Source: a virus. Taken from it: a stretch of 35,049 bases of DNA. A program made the translations under genes and the position numbers. Below the pieces are notes generated by a model. The model saw nothing but the letters and a program-made list of their open reading frames with translations, ran no database searches and was not told the origin of the DNA. Location of the stretch: IMG/VR virus record IMGVR_UViG_3300030118_004387, positions 4,779-39,827 of that record; one strand, 5' to 3'. Below, in pieces: positions 9,013 through 30,809 of this stretch (positions within the stretch are counted from its first letter, which is position 1; the number at the start of each line of letters is the position of its first letter).

Positions 9013-9868
9013 GAGCCTTTTTACCTCTGCTTTTATCGTATTTACTATTTATCCATCCATTATACTCAGCGTAATTCCAGACAAAAGGTGGGAAACTAAA
9101 ATCATAGGATTGAAGTATCTCAAAAACATTTGGACCATCGTTCAAAGCAGCTTCAATAAAAAGCTCAACAAATTTGAATTGATCAGCTATCTCCTTCTCT
9201 TTGACGCTAGATCTAAAACATCTGAATTCAATAGTTTTTGTGTGTTTCAAACAGTAAGTATTAATAGCGTAGCGGAATGGTCTGCCGATTGATACTCCAT
9301 CTTTACCTGCAGCATGCAGTTTTATAAAATCTTCAAAAGAATGAGCCCTAGTCAGTATGTTTTTTATCATATAAGGTGGCATAGGACGACCACCATCATA
9401 TTTCAGATACATTTTAGCTCCTTTAGATTTTTTCATTGGTAAGCCAGCATCATAAAAATTATAAAGGGCATTAATAGTTAGTTCTTGATTGATTCCGATG
9501 TATTTAATTAGCTTTTTCAATCCTTCAATATCTTCAATTAAATTTGGTATATGCACATGGAGATGACCATGATTGACACAAGAGGCACTAGGTGTATTAC
9601 CTGATTGCACAAAAAGTTCATGCAATTCCATAATATTATTTACTTGCTCAGCCCATGTTAAAGTAGGCTTTGTATTTATCTCGCCCCCCATGCAAGGATC
9701 CAAACCAAGAGGATCACAGGCTTTATATTTGTGTGGCTCTTGAATATTCACAATATCTGTTTCAGCGTATTCCCATTTACCCAAGGATTCAGGTATTGAG
9801 ATTCGCCTATCTATATCACCCCATTCAATTTCATAGCCCCAAGTGAAATCTTTTTTATCGTATTTCAT
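8993..9868 (-). CDS. Glutamine-synthetase-like amidoligase
   Basis: A 291-residue member of the amidoligase_2 group, which has the glutamine synthetase fold and joins an amine to a carboxylate at the cost of ATP. The expected metal and nucleotide residues are in place: GYEIEW (11-16), EINTKP (63-68), HGHLHVHIP (100-108) and TIEFRCFR near residue 213. These enzymes typically pair with a class II amidotransferase, and here that partner is the next gene upstream with a four-base overlap. The inferred job is to amidate or extend an amino-acid side chain on a modified base; peptide or cell-wall substrates, proposed for relatives, are the alternative. Confidence 0.83.
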   Translation of the reverse strand: MKYDKKDFTWGYEIEWGDIDRRISIPESLGKWEYAETDIVNIQEPHKYKACDPLGLDPCMGGEINTKPTLTWAEQVNNIMELHELFVQSGNTPSASCVNHGHLHVHIPNLIEDIEGLKKLIKYIGINQELTINALYNFYDAGLPMKKSKGAKMYLKYDGGRPMPPYMIKNILTRAHSFEDFIKLHAAGKDGVSIGRPFRYAINTYCLKHTKTIEFRCFRSSVKEKEIADQFKFVELFIEAALNDGPNVFEILQSYDFSFPPFVWNYAEYNGWINSKYDKSRGKKAREFIKV

Positions 9869-10512
9869 TGTAAGTCCTCGTAAGATTCTCTAATCTTTAC
9901 CACTTCTAAAATATTATTGATTGAACAATAATCATAGCAAGGTTCAGTTTTTGATATATTTTTCAAACTGAGCTTTTTAAGGATGTCTAAGGTAGAACCT
10001 ACTAAAAGTGTATTTTCAGTTTGCGAAAAATACAAAGGTCTCTGCTCGTTTCTGAAAAAGTTTAATGCAGGTTCCTTTTTGTTTGTTAATACTACACAAC
10101 TCATAGAGCCTTCTATCTTCAATGGGTGTATGCCTTTCAGCCAATGTAAAAGAAGAATTTCGCTGTCGCACTTAGAACTAAACTTCATGTTGTACTTAGC
10201 TTCCCACTTGCTCGGATCGCTTTGATCCACAACTCCATTATGTGCTAATGAAGTAGTCCCTTTGTAAACAGGCTGATTGTAAAGTAAGTCTGATGTGCTG
10301 TACCTACAATGAGCTATCAAGTTTTTGGTTTTAAAATCAGGTAAATCAAAAAGGTCAGCAGAATAAGGCACGATTTCATGTTTCAGTTTTCCGTCCTCAA
10401 TCCAACTTAGACCAGTAGCATGTTTGCCCCTTATCATTGATTCAAGGAGTATTTCTTTAACTAAAGATTTATCAATAAAATTTTTAGATTGTAAGCCAAC
10501 AACAGCACACAT
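9865..10512 (-). CDS. Class II glutamine amidotransferase
   Basis: A 215-residue Ntn-fold glutaminase that would release ammonia from glutamine for the amidoligase. The start at ATG 10512 leaves Cys2 as the N-terminal nucleophile once Met is removed (MCAVVG), which decides the start over the preceding in-frame GTG. RGKHATG (28-34), AHCRYST (67-73) and AHNGVV (90-95) match the glutamine-binding and oxyanion-hole motifs of the purF/glmS class. There is no synthase domain attached, so the acceptor must be a separate protein, most simply the adjacent amidoligase. The start overlaps the dioxygenase stop by one base. Confidence 0.88.
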   Translation of the reverse strand: MCAVVGLQSKNFIDKSLVKEILLESMIRGKHATGLSWIEDGKLKHEIVPYSADLFDLPDFKTKNLIAHCRYSTSDLLYNQPVYKGTTSLAHNGVVDQSDPSKWEAKYNMKFSSKCDSEILLLHWLKGIHPLKIEGSMSCVVLTNKKEPALNFFRNEQRPLYFSQTENTLLVGSTLDILKKLSLKNISKTEPCYDYCSINNILEVVKIRESYEDLQ

Positions 10513-11429
10513 CACAGACTCAAACTGTCGCCTCTGTTTCTGGTTTGTGCTTTGAACAATTCTTCTTCAGCAGACTGACAATGATGCATTTTTTCTCTGT
10601 AATAACAGACAATTGACACTCTTTCATATGCTAGTTTGGCTTTTATTTCTGTATTAGCGTGATATTCATGCACATTGAAAAAACAGACATCTCCGCTTCT
10701 CACATCAAAAGCGACTCGGTATCTAGGTATAACAGTATATCCACCTTCGTATTTCCCTGCCTCTAATACAGCTAAGTTACCTAAACCCTCTTTGTAATCT
10801 CCTGCGTCCACATGCAAGGCAGTTCTAAAGTTTTTGTTCACTGTGATGGTCGTAAACACAGTATCTTTAATCAAGAAGTCTGAATTTGTCTGATCTGCCA
10901 TGATTTTTTGAGCTTCATATCTTTCAGGGCATGATTCTTTAAAAAGCTCGTTTATTTTATGTATGTAAGGGTAGGCTTTTTTGAACTTATTAAAGTTTTT
11001 TTCATACCATGCAGTCTGTCTGCAAAAGGGAAATCTAGCATTTCTATCAAAAAAACCAACAATGCCTGAGTTTACTGTATTAGCTCTTGAAGTATTACTG
11101 AGTGTTCCGTCCTTTTTAATGCCTCTAAATCTTATTTTACTTAAATCGCCAATTTCCCAATCGTTTTGAGTTTCATTACTGATTATACCGCCTGCACTAC
11201 CACGATTGTTTGTGGGAGCTGCTGCATCTCTCAAAGCTACATAAGCATCTTTACAAAGGTTTGTAGGTATTTTGTTTTTCCTAAAGAAGAATAAAGGCTC
11301 TCCATTTTCACCATATGCATCACAATCATCTCTGATTACAACATCATAATCAGATTCATCAATCCATTCTCCTTTCCTTTTGGCTACTTCTTCTTTTGTA
11401 TAATGTGGTTCTAAATTAAAAACCTTCAT
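10512..11429 (-). CDS. TET/JBP-type 2-oxoglutarate/Fe(II) dioxygenase
   Basis: A 305-residue enzyme of the TET/JBP family, which hydroxylates the methyl group of thymine or 5-methylcytosine in DNA. The iron ligands read as H206-x-D208 in RTALHVDAGD and H257 in NVHEYHANT; R270 in YERVSIV would bind 2-oxoglutarate. The phrase FTTITVNKN just ahead of the HxD, and the GGYTVIP strand, are characteristic of phage members. I use ATG 11429 rather than an upstream TTG. No cytosine methyltransferase lies nearby, while a 5-hmdU kinase and its transferase do, so thymine to 5-hydroxymethyluracil is the favoured reaction. It is coupled to the ParB-like gene by a 14-base overlap. Confidence 0.82.
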   Translation of the reverse strand: MKVFNLEPHYTKEEVAKRKGEWIDESDYDVVIRDDCDAYGENGEPLFFFRKNKIPTNLCKDAYVALRDAAAPTNNRGSAGGIISNETQNDWEIGDLSKIRFRGIKKDGTLSNTSRANTVNSGIVGFFDRNARFPFCRQTAWYEKNFNKFKKAYPYIHKINELFKESCPERYEAQKIMADQTNSDFLIKDTVFTTITVNKNFRTALHVDAGDYKEGLGNLAVLEAGKYEGGYTVIPRYRVAFDVRSGDVCFFNVHEYHANTEIKAKLAYERVSIVCYYREKMHHCQSAEEELFKAQTRNRGDSLSL

Positions 11430-12042
11430 TTTTCGCTGTCTTTTCAACTGCTTCGTAAACAGTCTCAGTTAAATTTTCTTTTGACCATTTTTCTCTAAGG
11501 AAAGCTACCATGTCTTGAAACTTTGGCTCAGTTTCTTGATTCAAAAATATATTGACCATTCTCACATTACTGGTCTGTAAGTCATCAAATTGTGAGGTGT
11601 CTATATCTGTTACAATCTCTTCTGGCTCTGTGAACTCAATCATATCAGAGGTCATTTTCTCAATTTCTTCAAACGAAAACCCTGTTTGATCTAGGTCATA
11701 ATTTTGATCAGCAAGTTTGCCAAACTCCTCGGCAAGAAGTTCATTATCCCACTCTGAGAAATCTTGGCTTTTGTTATCCATAATCCTGAAAGCAGTTTTT
11801 TGAGCCTCACTAAGTCCTTCTGCTTTGTGCACAGGTACTTGTTCAAACCCTAACAACTTAGCAGCCTTGAGTCTCGTATGTCCTGCTAGGATTACCATAT
11901 CTTCATCAACGATTATAGGAACTCGCCAACCAACCTCTTTTATACTCATAGCTACTTTTTCAATAGATTCTTTATTGTTTCTTGGATTGTTGGGGTATTC
12001 TTGCAAATCCTCAACCTTCATCATTTTTGTGTTGTATGCCAT
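11416..12042 (-). CDS. ParB-like nuclease-domain protein
   Basis: A 208-residue protein with an N-terminal ParB/Srx fold: LQEYPNNPRNN (13-23), IIVDEDMVILAGHTRLKAA (about 43-61, with GHTR at 54-57) and a helical segment with MDNKSQD. The ParB fold can bind CTP or act as an ATP-dependent kinase or nuclease. It lacks the DNA-binding second domain of partition proteins and there is no ParA, so plasmid-style partition is unlikely. ParB-like proteins recur beside base-modification genes in phages, and here it is directly upstream of and coupled to the dioxygenase. Its exact step (targeting, phosphorylation or nicking) is open. Confidence 0.85.
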   Translation of the reverse strand: MAYNTKMMKVEDLQEYPNNPRNNKESIEKVAMSIKEVGWRVPIIVDEDMVILAGHTRLKAAKLLGFEQVPVHKAEGLSEAQKTAFRIMDNKSQDFSEWDNELLAEEFGKLADQNYDLDQTGFSFEEIEKMTSDMIEFTEPEEIVTDIDTSQFDDLQTSNVRMVNIFLNQETEPKFQDMVAFLREKWSKENLTETVYEAVEKTAKNEGF

Positions 12043-15590: not shown

Positions 15591-15833
15591 ATGAAAAATC
15601 TAAAACTAATACTAGAAAACCCTAATACCCAAACTGAGATAGTTCTTGGTTTCGTTGCTGATGAGGACGAAGCTAACGAAGTTGTTGATGCCATTGAGGA
15701 AAAGTGGTTTTCAGTAATTGATTCTAACCTTGATAAGCCAGTTGACATGCTAACTGATGACCCTGTTTTACTTAACTGGGAAGGTAGCGACATCTACTAT
15801 ATCAATTCTTATAACGAACACTTTTACCTTTAA
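15591..15833 (+). CDS. Hypothetical acidic protein, 80 residues
   Basis: The start follows AAGGAG. The protein is strongly acidic (ADEDEANEVVDAIEEK and several Asp pairs) and ends in aromatic residues. Acidic small proteins next to antirestriction genes are sometimes DNA mimics, but no specific family is recognised and this is speculation. It is the first gene after the third promoter copy. Confidence 0.6.
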   Translation: MKNLKLILENPNTQTEIVLGFVADEDEANEVVDAIEEKWFSVIDSNLDKPVDMLTDDPVLLNWEGSDIYYINSYNEHFYL

Positions 15834-15843
15834 GGAGCATAAA

Positions 15844-16719
15844 ATGAAGAAAGACGAAGTATTCAAAAGGATAAGAGAAAAAATCTTAGAGCTAATGAAG
15901 AAAGAGGGTACAGACTGGACTAAGTCTTGGATTGCTACTGCAACTCCTCTTAACTTCTTAAGCAAAAAAGAGTACAGAGGCATCAATAATTTTTGGCTCT
16001 CTGTACAGGGCTTTGACTCAAATGAGTGGGGTACTTTCAAACAATGGCAGTCTAAAGGCTACCGCATCAAGAAAGGTTCTTCCGCTACTCCGATAATCTT
16101 TTCTGAGATGAGAGAAAAAACTTTAGACAGATTATCCGATGACGAAAAAGCTAGATACGAAGAAACAGGTGTAATGCCTAAGTTTTGGTTACTAAGAAGC
16201 TACAATGTTTTTAACGCTGACCAGATAGAGGCTTATGTAAGTGAAAATACTAAGGTTGATCATAAAGAAACTATCAGTTCTAAAGACTTAGAGGCAGTAA
16301 TAAGGTTTATTGCTGCCACTAAAGCAGAGATCAAACACGAAGGCGATAGAGCTTACTATCATCAAATATTTGATGAAATAACTATGCCTGCTAAAGATAA
16401 ATTCTTTTCTGATGAAGATTACTACTCTGTCTTATTGCATGAGCTAACTCACTGGACTATGCACGAAGATAGAACCAACAGACAAGATAAAGACCTAAGT
16501 TATGCACAAGAAGAATTAGTAGCAGAGCTTGGTTCGGCTTTTCTTTGCAGATTGTTGAATGTTTCAAAAACAGTTAGACCAGATCACGCTAAGTATCTCA
16601 ATAACTGGATTGAAGCGATTGAGGATAGCGAGAAAGCAATGGTTCAAGCGTTTTCGGATGCACAAAAGGCGGTTGATTACTTAACCAAACTACAAACTAA
16701 AATGGAGAAGGCTGCATAA
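15844..16719 (+). CDS. ArdC-like antirestriction protein
   Basis: A 291-residue protein with the two-domain ArdC layout: an N-terminal ssDNA-binding domain (WLSVQGFDSNEWGTFKQW, KGSSATPIIF) and a C-terminal zincin-like metallopeptidase with LHELTHW, the HExxH-type zinc site, and the downstream AQEELVAELGSAFLC supplying the third ligand. ArdC proteins of plasmids protect incoming DNA from restriction. The ATG at 15844 after AAGGAGC is chosen. Its TAA stop lies in the loop of a terminator-like hairpin. Confidence 0.85.
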   Translation: MKKDEVFKRIREKILELMKKEGTDWTKSWIATATPLNFLSKKEYRGINNFWLSVQGFDSNEWGTFKQWQSKGYRIKKGSSATPIIFSEMREKTLDRLSDDEKARYEETGVMPKFWLLRSYNVFNADQIEAYVSENTKVDHKETISSKDLEAVIRFIAATKAEIKHEGDRAYYHQIFDEITMPAKDKFFSDEDYYSVLLHELTHWTMHEDRTNRQDKDLSYAQEELVAELGSAFLCRLLNVSKTVRPDHAKYLNNWIEAIEDSEKAMVQAFSDAQKAVDYLTKLQTKMEKAA

Positions 16720-17366: not shown

Positions 17367-17396
17367 AAGAGCGGTAGAAATACCGCTCTTTTTTTT
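17367..17396 (+). terminator. Rho-independent terminator of the plus-strand unit
   Basis: AAGAGCGGTA and TACCGCTCTT form a perfect 10-base stem with a GAAA tetraloop, followed at once by a run of T. It lies between convergent gene sets. The minus-strand side has AAAC, not a T run, so it works mainly for rightward transcripts. Confidence 0.88.
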
Positions 17397-18057: not shown

Positions 18058-18447
18058 CTACTCTCCCCATGTCCCATCTTCTTGGACTTTTGCTTTTTTT
18101 GTTCCGCCCCAGTATTCAACTGCGTGTCCTTCTTTTTTAAGAAGTTCGCAAATATCTTCTCCTTCCTCTGTGTGAGGGATTCCCAAAATCCTGCCATATT
18201 TACCGCTCCCTAATGATAATAATTGTAATTTTTCTCCGCATAACTCTATCAATCTATCTTTTGCCTTCAACCCTAGAGCCTTTTCTGCGAGATTCCTTGT
18301 CCTGCTTTCTGGTGTATCAATGCCTGCTAACCTTACTCTTTGTTTAGATAAGATTACTTCAAAACCTAAATCTATATCCACGTCTATAGTATCGCCATCA
18401 ATAACTTTGACTAAACGACAATTGTAATAATATGGTTTATTGCTCAT
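18058..18447 (-). CDS. Micrococcal-nuclease-like (SNase) protein
   Basis: A 129-residue thermonuclease-family protein. The metal and catalytic residues are present: VIDGDTIDVD (15-24, with D19), VRLAGIDTPES (38-48, with R39, D44 and E47) and a later GKYGRILG supplying the second Arg. It is a short member without a recognisable signal peptide. Its place within the lysis block, between spanins and endolysin, suggests it degrades host DNA late or at lysis; reducing extracellular DNA trapping of virions is speculation. Confidence 0.85.
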   Translation of the reverse strand: MSNKPYYYNCRLVKVIDGDTIDVDIDLGFEVILSKQRVRLAGIDTPESRTRNLAEKALGLKAKDRLIELCGEKLQLLSLGSGKYGRILGIPHTEEGEDICELLKKEGHAVEYWGGTKKAKVQEDGTWGE

Positions 18448-18820
18448 TTTTATTATCGCTTGTTACCATTCTATAGTACACAACTACCTCTTTGAGTTCC
18501 TTAATGTACCTTTTCAGTTCCTGCATATTGTAAGCCATTAGCTCATAATCTGGTATAGACATCGCTACGAAAACAACTCTACCTTCCTCTCGCTCAACAG
18601 TTTCTAAAAAGCTATCCATGTTTTTATCAGAAACGACATACCAGTAAGGAGCTTTTAATTGTAACTCCCTTGGCAAGATAGGTTGAGCAATCTTCCTTTC
18701 AACTGGCTTAGATATTACATCTACTTGTTTAGGGATTAGACTGCAACTGTAAGCCATCATCAAGACTGTCAATATTGCGACTGTCTTGTTCAATGCTTTC
18801 AAATACTTCTTTTGTGCCAT
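18437..18820 (-). CDS. Outer-membrane spanin (Rz1-like)
   Basis: A 127-residue protein with a short N-terminal hydrophobic segment ending in MMAYSC, a weak lipobox, followed by a periplasmic domain. It starts inside the end of the inner-spanin gene (92 bases shared), in a different frame, as in Rz/Rz1 pairs. It would fuse outer and inner membranes with its partner. It is longer than most Rz1 proteins and carries a C-terminal helical part, so the o-spanin role is inferred from architecture and position. Confidence 0.65.
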   Translation of the reverse strand: MAQKKYLKALNKTVAILTVLMMAYSCSLIPKQVDVISKPVERKIAQPILPRELQLKAPYWYVVSDKNMDSFLETVEREEGRVVFVAMSIPDYELMAYNMQELKRYIKELKEVVVYYRMVTSDNKNEQ

Positions 18821-19121
18821 TGTTTACTCTGGTTTCTATGAGATTAGGTTTTGCTGCTGCAAGTTTGCTGAGATTGTGTCTTTTGAAGATATCTAAATAT
18901 CTATTCATTTCAGCTTCTATTTCTTGGTTTTTGGCTTGTAAGTTTAAAAGTCCTTGAGTTTGCATCTGAAAATCAGATTGCAAGGTTTCAATAGTAGCTT
19001 TTTGCTCCTGATCTCTGAGGTCAAAGGCTTGATTCAATGAACTAAGTCTTTGATTTTGAAAGTAAAGAAAACCAGTGATTGCAACTAGAATTACAATTAT
19101 GCCAAGAAATATCTTGCTCAT
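18729..19121 (-). CDS. Inner-membrane spanin (Rz-like)
   Basis: A 130-residue protein with one N-terminal membrane anchor (IFLGIIVILVAITGFLYF, residues 4-21) and a long coiled coil rich in Gln and Glu, the standard inner-spanin topology. The final third overlaps the outer-spanin start. It sits between the curli-like cluster and the lysis enzymes. Confidence 0.7.
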   Translation of the reverse strand: MSKIFLGIIVILVAITGFLYFQNQRLSSLNQAFDLRDQEQKATIETLQSDFQMQTQGLLNLQAKNQEIEAEMNRYLDIFKRHNLSKLAAAKPNLIETRVNNGTKEVFESIEQDSRNIDSLDDGLQLQSNP

Positions 19122-19139: not shown

Positions 19140-20285
19140 TTATCCGCTGCCTTGTCTAATAACTATCGTTGAAGAACTACCACCATTTACTCTAACTTGA
19201 TTTTGCACACCATCTTGATCAAGTATAACTGTGTAAGAGTTGTTACCATCAATAGTGATATTGGCATTTGAGCTCACTTCTCTTTTCATGCTTATTGATT
19301 GACCTGACACGACAGTAGTAATTTGAGTGCTGCTATCTTGACCTACAGCTGTGCCTTTAATGTCTATGGCTGTGGCTACTTGCTTGATCTCATCTTCTTC
19401 TTCCAATGCATCTAGCTCATTTATTATATCTAGTAAATCTTCTAAGAAGTTTACATTTAAAGCATCGTAGTCTAATTCAGTAAATTCTAAATCTTCTGAT
19501 TCAAGCTCATCTTCCGCTAGTGCATCATATTCAAGTTCATCAAAATCTAATATGTCGCTTTGGCGAGAGTCAATAGCTTCTTCTTCGCTTTCTTTTCTCT
19601 TTGGTGGAGAAACAATCAACATGTTGTCTATAAAATCTAATGATAAATCAAGGATAACAGGGTCAGATGGGGGACTTTCAAATGTCGTAGTCGTGGTCGC
19701 CTGATATGGTTTGTTAAGTATTACCTCTCCTAATGCTGTCGTTACTACTATTTCTCCTGATGATGTGCCATCAGGGTTAGGCAAAAGGATAAATAGACTC
19801 TCACCTGTATCTGCCTCTACTGTGACTGTAAAATCTGTTCCTCTTATTCCTACAGTTGCACTGTTTGTCCTAAGAACCATGTTTTTTTTTGGAACAGAAC
19901 CTAGTAAACCTGTTGTGAATCTAGCAGTGCCTTTTACAAAATTGAGTGCAAGTTTTGAATTGTCTGGGTTTGGGTCAAAAACGAACTCATCAATAATGAC
20001 CTCTGAATGTTCTGTAATCTTGATAGTAGTATCGTCTATAAAACGAATACCCATACGACCTGATTCAGTCTGTGCTTTGTCATAAGATTGTATGCCAAAG
20101 TCAGTTATTACCTCATAGGGTTTTTCTCTTTCTATCTGTGCAAAACCAGAAACTTCTTCTACAGAACCAATGTCAGCAACTTGTGGCTGTGCCTTGATCG
20201 TTTTGGATGATACAGAAAGTACCATTATTACCACTAGAAATAACCCTGAGCCAATCGTTATCCAATGTACTTGCTTGTGTAACAT
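19140..20285 (-). CDS. FecR-domain protein with curlin-like C-terminal repeats
   Basis: A 381-residue secreted protein. Residues 1-33 give a signal anchor (GSGLFLVVIMVLSV). Residues about 40-215 form a FecR domain (ITEHSEVIIDEF, NFVKGTARFTTGLLG, ATVGIRGTDFTV). An Asp/Glu-rich linker (about 220-295) follows, then curlin-like strands near the end, where TVILDQDGVQNQVRVNG and TIVIRQGSG repeat the Gln/Gly/Asn spacing. It begins 113 bases inside the curlin-repeat gene in another frame; the signal sequence supports that long overlap. FecR domains often occur in envelope or polysaccharide-linked proteins. It may be a cargo or nucleator of the CsgG/CsgF pore; its role is unproven. Confidence 0.7.
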   Translation of the reverse strand: MLHKQVHWITIGSGLFLVVIMVLSVSSKTIKAQPQVADIGSVEEVSGFAQIEREKPYEVITDFGIQSYDKAQTESGRMGIRFIDDTTIKITEHSEVIIDEFVFDPNPDNSKLALNFVKGTARFTTGLLGSVPKKNMVLRTNSATVGIRGTDFTVTVEADTGESLFILLPNPDGTSSGEIVVTTALGEVILNKPYQATTTTTFESPPSDPVILDLSLDFIDNMLIVSPPKRKESEEEAIDSRQSDILDFDELEYDALAEDELESEDLEFTELDYDALNVNFLEDLLDIINELDALEEEDEIKQVATAIDIKGTAVGQDSSTQITTVVSGQSISMKREVSSNANITIDGNNSYTVILDQDGVQNQVRVNGGSSSTIVIRQGSG

Positions 20286-20874
20286 TTAAAGTTCTTGAGT
20301 TGCCTGTGTGATCTAAATAAAAATAACCGCCCTGATATCCGTCACCATTGTAATTGATTGTGTTTGAGTCGCCATCAATATCCATGTAGTTAGTGGCTAA
20401 ATCCACATCAATATCTACATCAATGGTATTACTATCGCCCTGTATAATCCAATCAAGGTCTAAAGTTGATGCCATAGCTGCAGTTGCTTGATCTAAAGAC
20501 ATATCATTTGAGTTACCAGTCACATCTATGTTTAAGTTAGATGTGTCCGCCCCATAAGTGTTGGTGGGGTCAACTTGGATATCAAATATGTTGCTATCAC
20601 CATCAAACTCAAAAAACCCTGTGAAAGTATCTGACGTAATATCCCCTTTGAATAAGTTGCTATCACCTATTTGGTTGATATCAATGGTCATAGTATTTCC
20701 ATCTAAATCTAAAGGGGTCATAGAACCTGCAGTCGCAGATTGACCACCAATCAAGTTTCCTGAACCTAGCTGTTCAATATCTAAGTTCAAAGTACCACCT
20801 AATTGATCTATTGATACTTCATTGTCTGCAGCAAACAACGAAAAAGAAAAAATAAAAACTATTGCTCTAATCAT
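20173..20874 (-). CDS. Curlin-repeat secreted protein (CsgA/CsgB-like)
   Basis: A 233-residue secreted protein. A signal peptide (IVFIFSFSLFAA) precedes repeats of curlin character, for example VSIDQLGG..LNLDIEQLGSGN and MTIDINQIGDSN, with Asp and Asn at turns and alternating hydrophobic strands through much of the length (IDVDIDVD, YMDIDGDSNTINY). Spacing is less regular than CsgA and Asp is unusually frequent. Two Cys sit near the end. It directly follows CsgG, overlapping its stop by eight bases, so it is the obvious substrate of the pore. It may form an amyloid fibre or a solenoid; this is inference. Confidence 0.72.
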   Translation of the reverse strand: MIRAIVFIFSFSLFAADNEVSIDQLGGTLNLDIEQLGSGNLIGGQSATAGSMTPLDLDGNTMTIDINQIGDSNLFKGDITSDTFTGFFEFDGDSNIFDIQVDPTNTYGADTSNLNIDVTGNSNDMSLDQATAAMASTLDLDWIIQGDSNTIDVDIDVDLATNYMDIDGDSNTINYNGDGYQGGYFYLDHTGNSRTLNVTQASTLDNDWLRVISSGNNGTFCIIQNDQGTATSC

Positions 20875-21664
20875 CCTGTTTAAAACTCCAAAGATTTTTT
20901 TTAGCTCCCTTCTCTATGATTTTGAGAACCGCAAATTCAATGGCGGATTGCAATGCAATAGTTACAGATTCATTTTCCACATTTCCATTCTCTATTTCAA
21001 CTAATTCTGTATCATCTTTGACGAATCTAAACACATCTCCACTTTGTCCATGACTTAATATGGTTTTTGTAGTTGTAACCTCTAATAATATGCGTCCAGA
21101 AAGCACAGAAACGAGCCTGAGGCTCAAAGTTACTGTATCTTGTCTATATTGCCTACTTAGACCAATTCCGAGCAATCTAGCCCCATTTCCGCCTGATCTG
21201 ACATTTGACTCATAACCAACAATAGCCCCCTCAAACAACATACCTGCAAATAACAATGGTTTGAGTTTTTGTTCGTCCTTGAAATCTAGTCTTGAACTTC
21301 TGATTATTTGTCTTTCTTTTGTGAGATTATCAAGACCTACCCTCTCCACCACAGTAAAAAATTTACCATTGGCAGCGTCCTTGAGTGCTTTTATGAGAAG
21401 GTTGTATGGAGCTTGTGTAACTGCAGTTGAAAAAGAGGCATAAGTACTGTTTGATCTTCTTTGTCCTGTTTGATCTAAAAAACCAGTAGGGTAAACAGCA
21501 ACTACAAGTTTTTCTCGTGGTGGTGTCTGATATGCAAGTTCATAATTGATGACATCATTTAGATGCGGATATTTTGATATACGAAAGTTTTCTAGTTTAT
21601 TTTTAGGTAATGCTCCGCAGCTAGAAAGTAAAACTATTGATAGGAAAAGTAATGACAGTAACAT
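20867..21664 (-). CDS. csgG: CsgG-like outer-membrane curli secretion lipoprotein
   Basis: A 265-residue homologue of CsgG, the nonameric outer-membrane channel that exports curlin. The start at 21664 is set by AGGAAGG just upstream and by the signal peptide with lipobox LLSSC (Cys16). Conserved CsgG features follow in order: DQTGQ (64-68), SFSTAV (77-82), IKALKDAA, ERVGLDNLTKERQIIRSS (about 107-124), EGAIVGYESNVRSGGNGAR (145-163) and later TTKTILS and FRFV. By alignment the constriction Phe of the pore is kept (F78) while the neighbouring Asn is Ser and the Tyr is displaced. It overlaps csgF by 44 bases. Export chaperones such as CsgE are not seen. Confidence 0.92.
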   Translation of the reverse strand: MLLSLLFLSIVLLSSCGALPKNKLENFRISKYPHLNDVINYELAYQTPPREKLVVAVYPTGFLDQTGQRRSNSTYASFSTAVTQAPYNLLIKALKDAANGKFFTVVERVGLDNLTKERQIIRSSRLDFKDEQKLKPLLFAGMLFEGAIVGYESNVRSGGNGARLLGIGLSRQYRQDTVTLSLRLVSVLSGRILLEVTTTKTILSHGQSGDVFRFVKDDTELVEIENGNVENESVTIALQSAIEFAVLKIIEKGAKKNLWSFKQDD

Positions 21665-22109
21665 GACCTTCCTCATCTGTAATAGTAAGCGTAATCGTTT
21701 CATCATCTGACTCATATTCAATGGTGTTACCCTCTAACTCAATAGAACCCTCTTTTGAGGCAGTTTCTCCGAAAAGATTTTCTACAAGTTGCCTTGATAG
21801 TTGTGCATACACTCTACTTTCTAGGTTACGAATGAACCTAGACAAAGTGGTGTTGTTTTCTTCCCTTTCTAACTCTTCCGCTAACGCTTTGATTTCTTCT
21901 AATAATGTTTTCTTTCTAGTGTGTTCTTGATTTTCTATAGTCAAATAATGTTGTGATGTATTGATGCCAGAGAAACTTGGCGATTTGAATTTGAAAATCA
22001 TCTCATCTGTAAATACAAAGTTTGAAAACAACAACAAACATATGACAAGTAACACAAAAAATATTATTGTTCTTAGCTGTCTTTTTTTATATTCCCACCA
22101 ATCTCTCAT
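21621..22109 (-). CDS. csgF: CsgF-like curli accessory protein
   Basis: A 162-residue CsgF homologue, the small protein that plugs and extends the CsgG pore and couples nucleation to secretion. A signal segment (IIFFVLLVICLLLFSN) is followed by FKFKSPSFSG (39-48), the counterpart of the E. coli mature N-terminus FQFRNPNFGG, and then a helix and a strand-rich C-terminus, as in CsgF. Start and stop overlap neighbours, and the ribosome site is AGAGGAAAG. The extra Lys/Glu-rich helix after the N-terminal motif is longer than in E. coli. Its presence beside csgG makes the curli reading firm. Confidence 0.87.
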   Translation of the reverse strand: MRDWWEYKKRQLRTIIFFVLLVICLLLFSNFVFTDEMIFKFKSPSFSGINTSQHYLTIENQEHTRKKTLLEEIKALAEELEREENNTTLSRFIRNLESRVYAQLSRQLVENLFGETASKEGSIELEGNTIEYESDDETITLTITDEEGHVTVITFPINSFTF

Positions 22110-22459
22110 TAGTCTTTCCTCTGATCGTCTCTATCTGCTTTAGCTATTTTATCCTTTTGTACCAATTGTGGTACTCCTAACATGGTTTTTAATAAAGTAT
22201 CTTGCCTGATTATCTCATTATCTACACTTCTGACTCTGTCAATCAAGGCAACTAATATACCTTGTTGTGCATCTAATTTAGTTTGTAATCTATCTTCCAT
22301 AGCTTTTAGTTGCTCGTTTACCTTATCATCAACTACATCTATTTTTGACTCCATGCCATCTATAATTCTATTAATAAGTTTCCAAACAAATATTCCAAGA
22401 CCAAGAGCAGCAGCAACAGGGAAACCCAGTTCTGTTATCAATCTTACTATATCGTCCAT
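22109..22459 (-). CDS. Membrane-anchored coiled-coil protein (holin candidate)
   Basis: A 116-residue protein with one N-terminal hydrophobic helix (FPVAAALGLGIFVWKLI, about residues 13-29) and a long coiled coil rich in Asp, Gln and Arg. It sits between the tail-assembly gene and csgF, starting by one-base overlap. Single-pass membrane proteins of this shape are often listed as holins in marine phages; a role tied to the curli-like genes is an alternative. I do not recognise a specific family. Confidence 0.55.
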   Translation of the reverse strand: MDDIVRLITELGFPVAAALGLGIFVWKLINRIIDGMESKIDVVDDKVNEQLKAMEDRLQTKLDAQQGILVALIDRVRSVDNEIIRQDTLLKTMLGVPQLVQKDKIAKADRDDQRKD

Positions 22460-22662
22460 TAGGTTGGTTTAGTCGGAAAGGTAATATCTTCCCATGATGT
22501 TGCATCAGGAAAGTCTGTAGGAATATCTCTTATCTTTTGTCTATAAGTAGCCCACTCTGCCTTTTTTGTATCACTCAATGGCGAGTCAGGTAATTGTGTC
22601 CAATCAGACGCTTGTAACTTTAGCAGTCTTTTATTTTTAAGTGCATCTTGAAAACTAATCAT
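22459..22662 (-). CDS. Tail assembly chaperone-like protein (P31-like)
   Basis: A 67-residue protein whose DWTQLPDSPLSD followed by WATYRQKIRDIP is the signature of the phage tail-fibre or tail assembly chaperone group (phage_tail_APC, P31-like). It follows the tail-tip gene with a four-base overlap, the usual position. It would help fold or assemble receptor-binding tail proteins. Confidence 0.75.
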   Translation of the reverse strand: MISFQDALKNKRLLKLQASDWTQLPDSPLSDTKKAEWATYRQKIRDIPTDFPDATSWEDITFPTKPT

Positions 22663-25622
22663 GCTGCTAATCCTATAACTTGTACCAATGCAAAAGCTAA
22701 TCCTCTTTGTCCTGCACTATTAGTATCTGTATCTTCCATTTGACAGAAGATCGCTACATTATAAGTAGTACTTGGTTTAGCTGTAAAAGAAGATGCAATG
22801 TAAATAGAGGATTGTGCTGCTCTACCTGTAGAAAACAAGAAGGTAGAAACAACATAATCACTTGCAGTATTAGAAGTCATGCTTGAATTATTTTCTCGCA
22901 TAGCCACTGCTGTAGCAATTTCCTCGTCCCCACTATAACTGCCTACAGGTGTTGCACTAAATATAAGTAAATGTGTTCTATTGCCAGAGAAAGCTCCTGT
23001 TGTGAAACTTGATGTTTTTTTAGCACTACCGCCCAATAGTCCACTGCTAGAGGAATTATGATAAGGGGCAGCTCCTAACCAAGTGTTCTCTGCTAACGAA
23101 GATACATTTGATACAGATATGATACTTGACGACATATCAAAGAACCCTGTTCCAATAGAATTAGACAAAGCATGACTTCCTACATTTATGTTAGAGCCTA
23201 ATGCTCCATCTCCAACCTCGCCATCTTTTATTGCATCTGCTCTAACAGAATCAGTGTTTAATTGTGGATGGTCAACTGCGTCATCTTTAATCTGATCTGT
23301 ATCTACAGAGTTATTAGCTAATTGATCTTCCTCTACTGCATTATCTGCTAATTGACCTGTATCTACCTTTGCAAAACTAGCGTTACCTGCAGAAACAAAA
23401 CCAGACGAATGCGTGCCGCCATGATTGATTGCTCTTACCCAAAAATAATAAGTTGTCCCTGCCACTAATCCATCTTGTATTCCAAATTCTGCCTTACTGA
23501 TAGCACTTGGTTCTCCATAAACTGTTTGGACAAGACCTTGAGAATCATTTGTTGGAGCAGTGCTTGATGTTCTTCTATAAACTTTGACTGCTCTTAAATC
23601 TGTATCACTAGGATTAGTCCATGATACTGTAAGACCGAGTGCATTCCCTGATGAAACAGATGCACTTGTAGGACTGTTTGGAGCAGTAGTGGGATAATTA
23701 ATTGTTGTGTCACTAAAAGTAGCAACATCTGAATAAACATTGTCATAGGTAAAATGCCTAACTCTAACATTATAAGTTTGACCAACAGTCACATTTGGAA
23801 TGACTGCTATTGTCTGACCCTTGCCTGATATTTGAGATGTGTATGTAGAGTCAGAATTTAGTTTGTATTGAACCTCAGTTCCTTGTATGGCTTCATTGGC
23901 AGCGTTAGTCCAGACAACTTTTAAATTTACTTTTGGTGTTGCTCCATCAATAGTAGCTGTTTGATTTATAGACCCTGCTGTTGGAGCTGTCACAGTCAAA
24001 GCCCCTGATGTCAAATCACTTCCCTCAGCTTGTATAGTTGAATATTCATTGGTGGCAAAGTCATAAACGCTTGTACTGATTTCTTTCAAATCTAGCTGAC
24101 AAGCAATAAAAGGGTTGTCATCGCCTTCTAAAACCATGTTAACTGCCATTACTTCAAATAACTTATTGCTGAAAGATAATCTTTCGTTAGTGATTTGGAC
24201 ATAATCTGCAGGTTGTAATTGTAAAAATTTTAGTGTCGTTGTTACCCTAATGGTTGTTGTTTCTCTTTGATGTAATAAGGCAATTTTCCCAAGTCTTTGT
24301 GCCATTGTGTTTGATGTAGTGAAAGGTAATCTGACTTCCATAGTTTTTACAAAATTGGCTGAAGTTTCACCACTTGGAGTATCGGCAGATAAGAAAGTTG
24401 AGTTCTGTAATATCGGTGTATCTGTAGGGATAAATTTTTGGTTTTCGTCAGAAAACATTGTTTTAACAGTGTTGTAGAGATCTCCTTGTATGCTTTTCGT
24501 GGTAACTGCAATTGGAGAAAGGCAATCATCATCTGTTATGGTTAAACTTGCTGTCTGATTTGCTCCTGCAAACGCATTAAACTTCCCATTGGAGTAAGTC
24601 ATAGTTCCTGCCATAGAACTTGTTATACCTGCGATTATATCTTCTCTAGTTGCAGCAAAATTTGTGAATCCATTACAGGTATATCTTTGCTCTGTCGTAC
24701 TTCCATCTGCAAGGGTTACAGTTTGCTCACAAGTATTAGCTGCAGCAGCAAAACCTCCTGCATTTGTGGTGTCGTTTATTTCACCTGAAGTAACACCAAC
24801 ACCATAACTTGTATCAGTAAGAATATCTCTTAAAACTAATGCAGGGTTATTTCCTATGACTTTATTTGTACTATCTGTAAAAGCTGTTTCTGAAGTTCTT
24901 GGATCAAAAAGTTTTTTACCTCTCACCTCAAAACTTATATTAGGAACATTAGGTAGTTTTTCTGAATCGTAAACCATTTGCATATAAACATAAGCACAGT
25001 TTTTAAAGATATGTGTGTTAGGCACTGAGGTCGTATTTAGTTGTGCCTGTGCAAAGCCATCAACTGCTGTTTGTGTTCCATCGTGAAAAGTAAATCTTAT
25101 TAATGCCCCAGAACCTAAATTATTTGGGTTATCGGAATTTTCAAAGAAATTAGCTGTTACAGTGTGAACAGTTTCACTATTTATAGATGTTGATGAGGTT
25201 TCAGATCCTAAAGCTAAAGCCTTATCGTTAATAAATACTTTTTGTAGGCTATCTATAGGATGACCTGCTAATACAGTAAATATGTGTAAAACAGAGTTAT
25301 CTGTTCCAGATGTTTCTATTTGAGTAAAAGTTCCACCTATCCTGCATTGACCATAAACAATCTGTCTTGGGGCAGTTGGATTTTTTGTACTAACTTTAGT
25401 CCCAAAGTTGTCGCCTAATCCAGATGGAAGTTTTTTGGCAGTCATCATTGATATGCCTGTAGAAACAAAAGCCATAGTAGCAGCAAAGGCTATAGCTGCC
25501 CCTGCTGATCCCTGTGTAAGACCAAATATTGCGGGAGCAGCTAAACCTCCTGTTCCGCCTGAGGCAACAATTATGCCTACTACTGCTGCTGCTAATATAG
25601 CTGATTTTGCTGCTTTAGCCAT
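22659..25622 (-). CDS. Tail tip/host-specificity protein (J-like)
   Basis: A 987-residue protein at the end of the tail tube, probably contacting the host. A hydrophobic N-terminal stretch (residues 8-60) resembles the membrane-like start of J-type proteins. The phrase PRQIVYGQCRIGGTFT is the conserved J entry motif. Residues about 540-730 form two fibronectin type III-like repeats (VKVYRRTSS, TYYFWVRAIN), then a stretch of short repeats (DNAVEEDQLANNSVDTDQIK) and a beta-rich C-terminus. It is shorter than lambda J (1132). Confidence 0.85.
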   Translation of the reverse strand: MAKAAKSAILAAAVVGIIVASGGTGGLAAPAIFGLTQGSAGAAIAFAATMAFVSTGISMMTAKKLPSGLGDNFGTKVSTKNPTAPRQIVYGQCRIGGTFTQIETSGTDNSVLHIFTVLAGHPIDSLQKVFINDKALALGSETSSTSINSETVHTVTANFFENSDNPNNLGSGALIRFTFHDGTQTAVDGFAQAQLNTTSVPNTHIFKNCAYVYMQMVYDSEKLPNVPNISFEVRGKKLFDPRTSETAFTDSTNKVIGNNPALVLRDILTDTSYGVGVTSGEINDTTNAGGFAAAANTCEQTVTLADGSTTEQRYTCNGFTNFAATREDIIAGITSSMAGTMTYSNGKFNAFAGANQTASLTITDDDCLSPIAVTTKSIQGDLYNTVKTMFSDENQKFIPTDTPILQNSTFLSADTPSGETSANFVKTMEVRLPFTTSNTMAQRLGKIALLHQRETTTIRVTTTLKFLQLQPADYVQITNERLSFSNKLFEVMAVNMVLEGDDNPFIACQLDLKEISTSVYDFATNEYSTIQAEGSDLTSGALTVTAPTAGSINQTATIDGATPKVNLKVVWTNAANEAIQGTEVQYKLNSDSTYTSQISGKGQTIAVIPNVTVGQTYNVRVRHFTYDNVYSDVATFSDTTINYPTTAPNSPTSASVSSGNALGLTVSWTNPSDTDLRAVKVYRRTSSTAPTNDSQGLVQTVYGEPSAISKAEFGIQDGLVAGTTYYFWVRAINHGGTHSSGFVSAGNASFAKVDTGQLADNAVEEDQLANNSVDTDQIKDDAVDHPQLNTDSVRADAIKDGEVGDGALGSNINVGSHALSNSIGTGFFDMSSSIISVSNVSSLAENTWLGAAPYHNSSSSGLLGGSAKKTSSFTTGAFSGNRTHLLIFSATPVGSYSGDEEIATAVAMRENNSSMTSNTASDYVVSTFLFSTGRAAQSSIYIASSFTAKPSTTYNVAIFCQMEDTDTNSAGQRGLAFALVQVIGLAA

Positions 25623-26696: not shown

Positions 26697-27569
26697 TTAG
26701 ATTTTCTCCTGACAACTAAAGGAAATCCTATATATTGAGTTCCTATCAGCAGACCAACTTATTTGATTGTCAATTAACCTAAAAAGACCTTTGGGTGAAC
26801 TAAATTTGACTAGGTTGTTATCTGCTAAAGCTGATCGTAATTTAGGCTCTACCCCTACTGCAAACTTATTAGCTCCTCCGCCTACTACTGTTTCTGTTGC
26901 TGCCTCAGTCACCAAAAGAAGTTGCACAGGTTGACTTGTGGTAGTTGTTCCGCCTAGAACACCTAAATAATCTCCAACTGCAATAGTCCCTGCAGCAGAG
27001 TTACTTGTAGCTAAAAGCGATAAGCCCTGCGAACCTTTTATGTTCTGTTGAACTTTACAGCCAGAAGTCCCTGTTTCGCCTGTAAGCGTAGAATCTACGA
27101 CAACAACTGTATTGCTTGTTACTGTCGTTATTTTATGTGTTCCGTTGTTTGCCTCGTTGTTTGCTCCTGTCACAACTATGTAGTCGCCTACTATTGCATT
27201 GGCAAATGTAGAAGCTCCTGCAGTTATTGTGCTTCCAGAAAAGGTCAAAGCGACATTGGTGTTAGATATTCTAGCGTTTGCTTTCAAATCATCAGCATCG
27301 TATGTACCTGTGTTAGTTAAAGCGTCTGGATCTGCAAATTTAAAAACATTTGATGTGCCTTTTAATCTTGAAAGAAATGACTGCCAATTTACAGCAGTTG
27401 ATCTATTCATAGGTGGTAATGTCACATCAGCAGACCAAAAAACATTATCAAACTCTTGCGTTTTTTGTTGACCAGAAAAAGGACTAATAGTTTGTCCTAT
27501 CGTTCTTACTAAAGTGAACTCACTTGCTAAAAAATTAGGTGTTGTAGGCATAGTTAGTTCTTTGCTCAT
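26697..27569 (-). CDS. Distal-tail-like protein
   Basis: A 290-residue, strand-rich protein after the tape measure, the place of the distal tail or hub ring. No motif settles the family; the N-terminal FNNVFWSADVTLPP-like stretch (actual EFDNVFWSADVTLPP) and SFLSRLKGTSNVFKF are shared, from memory, by marine phage proteins here. A central Ala/Thr/Val-rich part (about 105-170) looks like an inserted beta domain. It overlaps the tape measure stop by ATGA. Confidence 0.65.
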   Translation of the reverse strand: MSKELTMPTTPNFLASEFTLVRTIGQTISPFSGQQKTQEFDNVFWSADVTLPPMNRSTAVNWQSFLSRLKGTSNVFKFADPDALTNTGTYDADDLKANARISNTNVALTFSGSTITAGASTFANAIVGDYIVVTGANNEANNGTHKITTVTSNTVVVVDSTLTGETGTSGCKVQQNIKGSQGLSLLATSNSAAGTIAVGDYLGVLGGTTTTSQPVQLLLVTEAATETVVGGGANKFAVGVEPKLRSALADNNLVKFSSPKGLFRLIDNQISWSADRNSIYRISFSCQEKI

Positions 27570-29221
27570 CGCATACCTCTTCTAAATGAACCACCCCTCA
27601 TGTTTGCTTCCAAGACTGCAGCTTTAGATACATCTGCTATTTGTGGCAACATCTTGGTTATTTCTGCTTTTACTGTTGGTACTATTCCTGTGCTAAAGCT
27701 AATGTTTTGCACAACAGAAATACCGCCTCCGCCTAAAGCAGATTTAGTGTCAGCATTATTCATTATGTTACCTGCGGAATGCGGAACAAAAAGCTCTGGA
27801 CCTCTTTCCCCAACAAGCATAGGTCTACCATGACTTGCTCTTCCTCCACCTGCTGATCCTGTTCCTCCACCATCTGTAGTTCCCAAACTTGGAAATATCC
27901 CTTTTAATATTGGCTCAACTACTTGCAACCTAATAAATGTAGCAATAATTTCTGACACAATACTTTTTGTGAAATCAGAAAAAGAAGATAAAAGGTCTTT
28001 ACCCTCTAAAAGAGCATCGGCAAAGTCTCTTGAAAGGTTCTGAGCTGCTTCTAAGATTACTGTGTCTAGTTCTCCCATAGCTTTTGTAAATTCTGATGTC
28101 TCTTCTTTGCCCTTATTCATCAATGCAATAAATTTAGGAGAAGCCATAAATTCTTCAAATAAAGCGTCTTGTGCTGCTATCATGTCAAATTCATTTGCTA
28201 AAAGATCTTCTTCCCCTCTTCTAATATCTGCTATGACTTTTCCCCCAAAGCCTTTTTCTCTTTTAAGTTGGTTTGCCTTTAAACTATCTTGAATAAGTTT
28301 TCTTTCAGCCTCAAGAACTCTAATTTGTTCTGTAGGGTTCATAGTCCCTGTTTTATCAAAAAGCGTTTCATTACCTGTTATTGCTCTAACAGTCCTAGCA
28401 ATATTTGATGCAAGATTACCTAATTTATCTGCCATGCCGCCTAGAAAATCTCCTAAACCACCTTCAAACACTGCGTTTTGTAATTCTTTGAAAGCAATAG
28501 TCATATTTGATGTCTTGGTGGATAAGTTATCCATTTTATTTATCATTGCCCCACCAAACTGCTCTTGCATACCATCAATTAACATTTGAACCATAGCTGC
28601 TGCTCCCTCTGCAGTTTGTCCAAACTTAGAAAGCTCTAATCTTGTAACACCTAAAGCATCGGTCAAGATTTTTGTTGCAGGAATACCTCTGTCATCTAAT
28701 TGGTTGATTTCTTCTAAACCTAAACCACCTGCAGCAGACCTTTGTACCAATCTGACCATTGCATTGAAAGCTCCTAATTGATCAATTGAAGTAGAGGCAG
28801 TATCAGCAAAGGTTTGCAACATACCCATGTTCGGTTCTATTCCTGCTCCTTTCAAAGAAATAAATGCTCTAGTTACATCTTCTATCTGGAAAGGTGTAGT
28901 TTGTGCAAAAGTAAGAATACTATTGAATGCAGCGTCTCCTCTTTGAACTGAACCAAACACTTGATTCAAAGAATCTCTCATATCTTCAAATTCAGATCCT
29001 ACTCTTGCTATTCCCTGAACAGCAGCAATTCCACCTAATCCAGCAGCAACAGTTCCCAATAATGGTATTAATGTTTTCGCAGAGCCTATCATTGGCAGAA
29101 AAGCTCCTCTACCCTTTTGTGAGGTTCTTCCTAAACTACCTTCAATGTTACGCAGTTTGGCATTCAGATCTTTGGTATCTGCTTTTATCTCTACAATTAA
29201 TTCGTCAACTGTTTTAGCCAT
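27566..29221 (-). CDS. Tail tape measure protein
   Basis: A 551-residue protein that sets tail length. The N-terminal part is coiled, with hydrophobic segments (LIPLLGTVAAGLGGIAAVQG), followed by a tape-measure domain with QTTPFQIEDVTRAFISLKG and MGMLQTFADTA. The C-terminal Gly/Ser-rich stretch includes SHGRPMLVGERGPELFVP, the phrase typical of these proteins. At about 1.5 angstrom per residue the tail would be roughly 80 nm, short for a siphovirus. It begins by one-base overlap with the frameshifted chaperone stop. Confidence 0.93.
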   Translation of the reverse strand: MAKTVDELIVEIKADTKDLNAKLRNIEGSLGRTSQKGRGAFLPMIGSAKTLIPLLGTVAAGLGGIAAVQGIARVGSEFEDMRDSLNQVFGSVQRGDAAFNSILTFAQTTPFQIEDVTRAFISLKGAGIEPNMGMLQTFADTASTSIDQLGAFNAMVRLVQRSAAGGLGLEEINQLDDRGIPATKILTDALGVTRLELSKFGQTAEGAAAMVQMLIDGMQEQFGGAMINKMDNLSTKTSNMTIAFKELQNAVFEGGLGDFLGGMADKLGNLASNIARTVRAITGNETLFDKTGTMNPTEQIRVLEAERKLIQDSLKANQLKREKGFGGKVIADIRRGEEDLLANEFDMIAAQDALFEEFMASPKFIALMNKGKEETSEFTKAMGELDTVILEAAQNLSRDFADALLEGKDLLSSFSDFTKSIVSEIIATFIRLQVVEPILKGIFPSLGTTDGGGTGSAGGGRASHGRPMLVGERGPELFVPHSAGNIMNNADTKSALGGGGISVVQNISFSTGIVPTVKAEITKMLPQIADVSKAAVLEANMRGGSFRRGMR

Positions 29222-30401: not shown

Positions 30402-30809
30402 TTATGAAGTTCCTAAAATTATTGCACGGAATCGCATGACACCATGTCTGGTAATCCCATCTGGGTCTTTTAGTATATCACTAAATTCAAACCTTAAATT
30501 AACAAGATTGAATCCTGTAACACTTAGACTACTATTGTGAAGTAGAGTGTGAATTCTGTCCATAATATTTTTTGTTTCCTTTGCCCCTGCGTATTGTGAC
30601 CAAACATGAATGGTCATCGTGAACTCGCCACCATCAAGATCTTTTGTGTCGTATTCAATAGCTGTATCGTCTGCTATCTCTACAAAGGGATAAGAAGCTG
30701 TCTCTACGACTTCATCGTAAACACCTGCTCCAAGCGTTGATGTAAGGTTACTATCGCTGTTCAGGGTTGAATAAATAGCTGTTTGTAAGGCAAATTGTCC
30801 TATGCTCAT
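30402..30809 (-). CDS. Tail terminator protein (DUF3168)
   Basis: A 135-residue protein with the DUF3168 pattern: FALQTAIYSTLNSDSNLTST, then YPFVEIADDTAIEYDTKD, TMTIHVWSQYAG and the closing LRFEFSDILKDPDGITRHG. It caps the tail tube and joins it to the head. Start overlaps the gp10-like stop (ATGA). Confidence 0.85.
   Translation of the reverse strand: MSIGQFALQTAIYSTLNSDSNLTSTLGAGVYDEVVETASYPFVEIADDTAIEYDTKDLDGGEFTMTIHVWSQYAGAKETKNIMDRIHTLLHNSSLSVTGFNLVNLRFEFSDILKDPDGITRHGVMRFRAIILGTS

Follow-up and report, generated by a model that had tools for sequence, protein, structure and literature searches.

The 35,049-nucleotide stretch analysed here (hereafter the window; positions 4779-39827 of the 39,827-base IMG/VR virus record IMGVR_UViG_3300030118_004387, which is linear and may be incomplete) carries, within the late and lysis genes of a marine siphophage-type virus, what appears to be a compact type VIII, or curli-type, secretion system (T8SS). 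It comprises a small coiled-coil membrane protein, homologues of CsgF and CsgG, a secreted curlin-like protein with a predicted beta-solenoid fold and a secreted FecR-domain protein, encoded in that order and docked in the lysis cassette. The module may serve for the late export of the curlin-like protein to the surface of the infected cell, for adhesion or aggregation around lysis, a proposal which we consider about evenly balanced between right and wrong. Phage T8SS modules have already been published as a kind; the siphophage lineage, the docking in the lysis cassette and the reduced five-gene form are new here.

The constancy of the module among its relatives supports this proposal. IMG/VR was queried with CsgG (80 loci kept from 95 relatives), with the 116-residue membrane protein (80 of more than 580 kept, and 80 more from a second query of the family, some loci being common to both) and with a tail protein, which gave 35 relatives. 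Among 180 distinct viral csgG genes (loci L001-L263, including the window, isolates and truncated copies), and wherever the contig leaves room, csgG is accompanied by CsgF in 166 of 166 loci, by the curlin-like protein in 158 of 158 and by the FecR-domain protein in 149 of 149, counts that are not independent events, as the loci share descent and were fetched by the module's own proteins or by the phage's tail protein. A survey of csgG-csgF synteny had been recommended by an earlier, sequence-only reading of this DNA. A 116-residue or paired 93-residue protein is present in 154 of 156 loci with room for it, L035 and L036 being without it. All 11 loci that were fetched by the tail protein alone and run more than 1.1 kb past the J gene (lambda J-like tail tip) carry the module, and the other 16 with J stop too close to it to be judged. 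An adenylate cyclase is present in 43 of the 79 csgG loci judged, and a spanin or endolysin is found downstream in 67 of 88.

Purifying selection acts on each of the five genes of the module, with median ratios of nonsynonymous to synonymous substitution (dN/dS) of 0.278 for CsgF, 0.278 for CsgG, 0.137 for the curlin-like protein, 0.271 for the FecR-domain protein and 0.083 for the small membrane protein, values that are rough, dS being high and the genes overlapping. Since the module is kept as a unit under such selection, a bare pore is unlikely. In a CsgG tree built by a quick method, with Shimodaira-Hasegawa-like approximate likelihood ratio (SH-aLRT) support only, the starred clade that contains the window has 82 viral rows; the tree does not resolve a bacterial origin, and the sequence from a Hyphomonas contig (L265) sits on a long branch.

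Channel, cap and secreted proteins

The four minus-strand open reading frames (ORFs) at 19140-22109, and the CsgF-like and CsgG-like identities that the sequence-only reading gave to two of them, are borne out by the family searches. The CsgG homologue scores 164.6 bits against PF03783, for which the cut-off is 20.8, and the viral CsgG profile matches the solved E. coli CsgG at 2.4e-66. It carries the GYESNVRSGG block and the lipobox LLSSCG, the Cys of which is invariant among 21 aligned viral CsgG sequences; its gene probably starts at an ATG near 21673 and not at the TTG at 21721, as we read the starts of the homologues in the alignment. Phe71 of the CsgG precursor is one of three constriction-ring residues (PMC7304575); among 165 distinct viral CsgG sequences, its equivalent (mature Phe56) is kept as Phe in 161, replaced by Leu in two and unmatched by the search pattern in two, and the position of Asn70 varies freely. 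The CsgF homologue matches PF10614 above the curated Pfam cut-off, and its signal segment is followed by DEMIFKFKSPSFSG, with the motif FKFKSPSFSG present. The equivalents of Phe26 and Phe31 are kept in 132 of 154 viral CsgF sequences, and that of Phe24 as well in 55 of the 154; changes at Phe24, Phe26 and Phe31 disrupt the binding of CsgG, according to PMC10133297.

Of the two secreted proteins claimed to be curlin-like, one is a candidate curlin. The protein at 20173-20874 contains five copies of G[DSN][SND]N against 0.23 expected, a number reached in none of 1000 shuffles. Its own match to Curlin_rpt is under the Pfam cut-off (0.027), and 16 of its 35 relatives match this family at E<=0.1, the best at 3.6e-5. 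An AlphaFold2 model predicts a beta-solenoid, with a predicted local distance difference test score (pLDDT) of 83.6. All 96 distinct relatives have two or more cysteines among their final 20 residues (window 20173-20235), where these could possibly form a disulfide cap. A sequence search of solved structures with the curlin profile was discarded, having returned only antibody chains and other unrelated proteins.

The second protein, at 19140-20285, is mainly a FecR-domain protein with one weak curlin-like motif, an identity that the sequence-only reading had not given. The FecR domain is found in 38 of 38 members of its family, and the N-termini, judged by eye, resemble signal peptides. A FecR protein acting as an iron-dependent regulator requires a cytoplasmic N-terminal domain; DUF4880 (PF16220) was matched at E<=0.01 in none of the 38 members, nor anywhere in the 39.8-kb record. 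The signal-peptide-like N-terminus and the lack of an anti-sigma domain make the published label of FecR regulator doubtful and, on sequence grounds, probably wrong; the protein would rather be a secreted partner, namely a tether, a nucleator or a second substrate. Its structure model is good for the domain at about residues 40-200 and poor for the remainder. Of 100 distinct relatives, 83 have the motif QxGxxN within their final 60 residues and one has it elsewhere; the single copy in the window protein is equalled in 52 of 1000 shuffles. The FecR C-terminus was not accepted as a proven curlin repeat, and a sequence search of solved structures with its profile gave nothing meaningful.

The small membrane protein and the docking site

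The gene before csgF encodes a protein of 116 residues with, as read by eye, one N-terminal transmembrane (TM) segment and a coiled coil. Its best family is phrog_18771, a family without assigned function, matched by 21 of 21 relatives; five of the 21 also match phrog_4898 (holin), the best at 1.1e-4, and three match YvrJ, the best at 0.037. It may thus be described as T8SS-linked and weakly holin-like. By position and copy number it is evidently the gene called 'histidine kinase' in PMC9599517. Among the Pfam matches of the 21 members at E<=0.1 there is no kinase domain, because of which that label is probably wrong; HATPase_c was not matched in the 39.8-kb record either. Two proteins of this family, of 92-115 residues, precede csgF in both HTVC008M and Melnitz, and the family is present in six of 50,697 phage records, all of CsgG-bearing myophages (HTVC008M, two; Melnitz, four). 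As its occurrence in isolates is limited to CsgG-bearing records, a pure lysis role for the small protein is disfavoured.

When loci were fetched by this protein, csgF directly followed its gene in 136 of the 142 with at least 600 nucleotides downstream, and in three more (L242, L245 and L262) csgF overlaps it further, so that csgF adjoins it in 139 of 142. The remaining three loci, from two contigs (L233, and L123, which equals L188), have the small gene without csgF, and their records, of 58.4 and 13.5 kb, contain no CsgG anywhere. Their gene order is an 'XhlA-like' gene, the 116-residue gene, a 160-residue protein, the nuclease and the endolysin, where the XhlA-like name, and that of a three-TM (3TM) holin for the 160-residue protein, are our presumed identities. 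In L074 the same flanking genes enclose a CsgF-CsgG-curlin-FecR-cyclase run. Modules of the HTVC008M or Melnitz type also stand behind this same docking gene in six loci (L106, L218, L223, L234, L238 and L252), in which the docking protein is 73-78% identical to that of the window and CsgG is 42-51% identical to the nearest query. The idea that the T8SS replaces the 3TM holin was rejected, because 43 T8SS loci also have that holin. The linkage of module and spanins is not always tight, as about 4-5 kb separates FecR from the spanins in L026, L032, L039 and L050; in L026, L032 and L050 this interval encodes a tail-like protein of 628-725 residues and small basic proteins.

Genome setting and known relatives of the module

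The csg block (Table 1) lies between the 116-residue gene and the genes for spanins, nuclease and endolysin, downstream of a siphophage-type morphogenesis run on the minus strand. From the 116-residue gene to the endolysin (22459 to 17613) neighbouring genes overlap or stand at most 18 nucleotides apart, so that the coupled cluster with spanins and endolysin following directly, as claimed from the sequence alone, is upheld. The G+C content of the block (36.6%) is close to that of the window (36.4%).

Table 1. Late genes of the window around the csg block
Feature	Position in window	Strand	Family match
Tail terminator	30402-30809	-	
Tape measure protein, siphophage-type tail	27566-29221	-	phrog_973, 1.6e-27
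Distal tail protein	26697-27569	-	
Lambda J-like tail tip, upstream in the run	22659-25622	-	phrog_31 'central tail fiber J', 3.1e-61; phrog_5616, 7.7e-72
67-residue tail-fibre-assembly-like protein	between J-like tip and 116-residue gene	-	
116-residue protein, N-terminal TM segment and coiled coil	22109-22459	-	phrog_18771
CsgF homologue, outer-surface adaptor	21621-22109	-	PF10614, 7.8e-19; phrog_35372, 1.6e-42
CsgG homologue, lipoprotein outer-membrane channel	20867-21721	-	PF03783, 2.5e-48
Secreted curlin-like protein, predicted beta-solenoid, candidate CsgA/B-like substrate	20173-20874	-	
Secreted FecR-domain protein, acidic linker and C-terminal QxGxxN/IxIxQ motif	19140-20285	-	PF04773, 1.5e-8
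Rz-like inner-membrane spanin	18729-19121	-	phrog_739, 2.4e-12
Rz1-like outer-membrane spanin, overlapping Rz	18437-18820	-	phrog_812, 5.5e-12
Staphylococcal-nuclease-like protein, lysis cassette	18058-18447	-	PF00565, 6.1e-11
Endolysin (phage lysozyme)	17613-18197	-	PF00959, 9.6e-48

By J and TerL, the nearest records share 24-48% identity and include Roseobacter phages and one Pelagibacter phage, and a close-DNA search of phage records with window positions 12000-35049 gave no match. Scans for tRNAs and Rfam families found nothing, and promoter-like sites are not in excess (17 against 20.8 in shuffles). Between the convergent gene runs, a perfect 10-pair stem with a T-run at 17367-17390 resembles a terminator on the plus strand. 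Elsewhere in the window, a glutamine-amidotransferase-like gene adjoins a phrog_24024, weakly queuine tRNA-ribosyltransferase-like gene (9865-11447), the two possibly belonging to a 7-deazaguanine modification pathway, and an anti-restriction protein is encoded at 15757-16719 (phrog_7245, 4.2e-70), which we take to be ArdC-like.

Genes of this kind are known from several phages: csgF and csgG occur in pelagimyophages, for which sibling capture was proposed (PMC7029224), CsgF, CsgG, CsgA/B, FecR, cyclase and 'HK' genes occur in podophages and myophages, with module transfer between the two, a wide distribution and metatranscriptome evidence (PMC9599517), curli genes of phages are found widely in viromes from the ocean (PMC9599517, PMC11309003), and viral csgG is also mentioned in PMC9636769, PMC11309003 and PMC7003362. 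No description of a siphophage T8SS module was found in the openly accessible literature, subscription papers being mostly outside the search. In the pelagiphage HTVC008M (NC_020484, gp011-gp019; PMC9599517) the order of small protein or proteins, CsgF, CsgG, curlin and FecR is that of the window, and its CsgG shares 46.9% identity across 82% of the query; the window differs in having one small protein instead of two, neither a second curlin nor an adenylate cyclase, siphophage-type tail genes, and spanins and endolysin directly downstream. The Methylophilales phage Melnitz (MZ577097; PMC9004378, a paper that deals with the pore genes only) likewise has CsgF, CsgG, curlin and FecR in this order, yet it is a myophage of the Kyanoviridae, with a second curlin and a cyclase after FecR. 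Compared with E. coli curli (CsgA-G), CsgG and CsgF are homologous, whereas the cargo has diverged, a FecR protein stands in place of a recognised CsgB, and neither CsgE nor CsgC was found.

A CsgF-CsgG-curlin-FecR-cyclase run also occurs on the 705-kb contig NHBW01000006 (L265:7483-13506) of the metagenome-assembled genome (MAG) Hyphomonas sp. TMED17, and gives the full phage module a counterpart in a cellular genome; the pairing of FecR and cyclase is therefore not restricted to phages. This run differs from that of the window: the ORFs of at least 80 residues ahead of csgF include no small coiled-coil protein, the curlin has 504 residues, and the FecR C-terminus lacks QxGxxN. Two further contigs with the full module, filed under Sphingobacteriales and Planctomycetaceae MAGs (L264 and L266), have a T4-like phage look, with clamp-loader-like and lysozyme-like ORFs recognised by eye, and are probably phage DNA binned into MAGs. 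A csgG-like stretch of 42.2% identity in OR851715.1 (1,499 bases, named Salmonella phage S.Kent 1-2-1) might be host DNA mislabelled as phage.

Proposed function and its rivals

Several roles have been suggested for phage-encoded csg genes. For Melnitz, PMC9004378 proposes that CsgGF acts as a gated pore which triggers or helps lysis by depolarising or perforating the envelope, and use of the pore in lysis was also raised by the sequence-only reading. Such a device would suit a module lying between a weakly holin-like protein and the spanins and endolysin, and in the lysis cassettes of many contigs, as well as the confinement of the small protein to CsgG-bearing isolate records. A bare pore, however, needs neither curlin nor FecR protein, both of which are kept in every locus with room for them, the phage encodes a spanin pair and an endolysin of its own, and two contigs have the flanking lysis genes but lack the module. 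Melnitz is moreover said in that paper to be without csgA/B, yet the record deposited for it lists two curlin-associated repeat proteins and a FecR protein next to csgFG. A lysis device is thus unlikely, and pore-only lysis was set aside as the leading explanation, given the co-retention of both secreted proteins.

Superinfection exclusion, in which surface fibres would mask receptors from competing phages (PMC9599517), would account for the keeping of both channel and secreted cargo; it should act early, yet the genes lie in the tail-lysis run, a position that fits it poorly, and we give this suggestion, shared by the sequence-only reading, a low probability. A coat on virions or debris, whereby the exported solenoid on particles or cell ghosts would alter adsorption to hosts or surfaces, agrees with the late position beside tail genes and with a secreted solenoid cargo, but proteins with signal peptides would not be usual virion parts, which leaves it quite improbable. 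A pore for the import of large nutrients, a possibility raised in PMC7029224 and PMC9599517, could make use of a CsgG that is open without CsgE; it would leave the conserved curlin and CsgF unexplained and is very improbable.

Late export of the curlin-like protein is the reading that needs the fewest assumptions, and it has difficulties of its own. Because the module genes stand among tail and lysis genes, late export is probable, and the late position together with the full retention of cargo favours adhesion or aggregation near lysis over a bare pore or early exclusion. The CsgG lipoprotein would form the outer-membrane channel and CsgF its external cap; the curlin-like solenoid would reach the periplasm by its signal peptide and leave through CsgG, with the FecR-domain protein as secreted tether, nucleator or second substrate and the 116-residue protein as a partner specific to phages and tightly linked to the module. 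Fibres or a coat could then cover the cell and its debris at the release of progeny, and adhesion or aggregation, the likeliest use, would hold new hosts near that progeny.

A number of observations weigh against this proposal. Gene identities, conserved order, co-retention, purifying selection, the predicted solenoid fold and the docking site in lysis cassettes come from the sequences themselves; the timing is deduced from gene position, and export, polymerisation and purpose are likewise inferred. The solenoid model matches the CsgA fibril 8enq with a Z score of 10.9 and the best unrelated beta-helical protein with 16.6, and Foldseek gave no match to it at E<=0.001; as the model fits many beta-helical proteins at least equally well, the protein may be a stable monomeric solenoid instead of an amyloid. 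Two C-terminal cysteines are, furthermore, untypical of E. coli CsgA. Comparison of the FecR C-terminus with the curlin profile gave a probability of 7.5% and an E of 0.0047 (0.64 for the control against CsgG), and Curlin_rpt is absent from the 17 Pfam families matched by 24 members of the FecR family. Melnitz-infected cells showed no clumping under the conditions of the study, according to PMC9004378. Finally, as the sequence-only reading had noted, CsgE was not found, the 39.8-kb record giving no match to it at E<=1, and no CsgC model matched there; according to PMC9599517, alphaproteobacterial modules lack CsgC, CsgD and CsgE, and the CsgE gate is thus not universal.

A bolder extension of late export is that the 116-residue protein, as a dedicated inner-membrane partner, ties curli-type export to the lysis clock, that solenoid adhesin and FecR tether reach the envelope only shortly before the burst and glue together debris, progeny and neighbouring hosts, and that phage types swap T8SS variants behind the docking gene; this is tentative and rather doubtful. 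The gene content nevertheless supports the sequence-only reading in so far as it saw a phage-encoded module for curli-type export, with one or more candidate substrates. That channel, cap, solenoid cargo and FecR-domain protein are retained together so strictly points to real export and not to a bare pore. The site in the lysis cassette hints at when the module acts. Without the labels of regulator and kinase, what has been seen as a regulated auxiliary metabolic operon would become a self-contained module for delivery to the cell surface.

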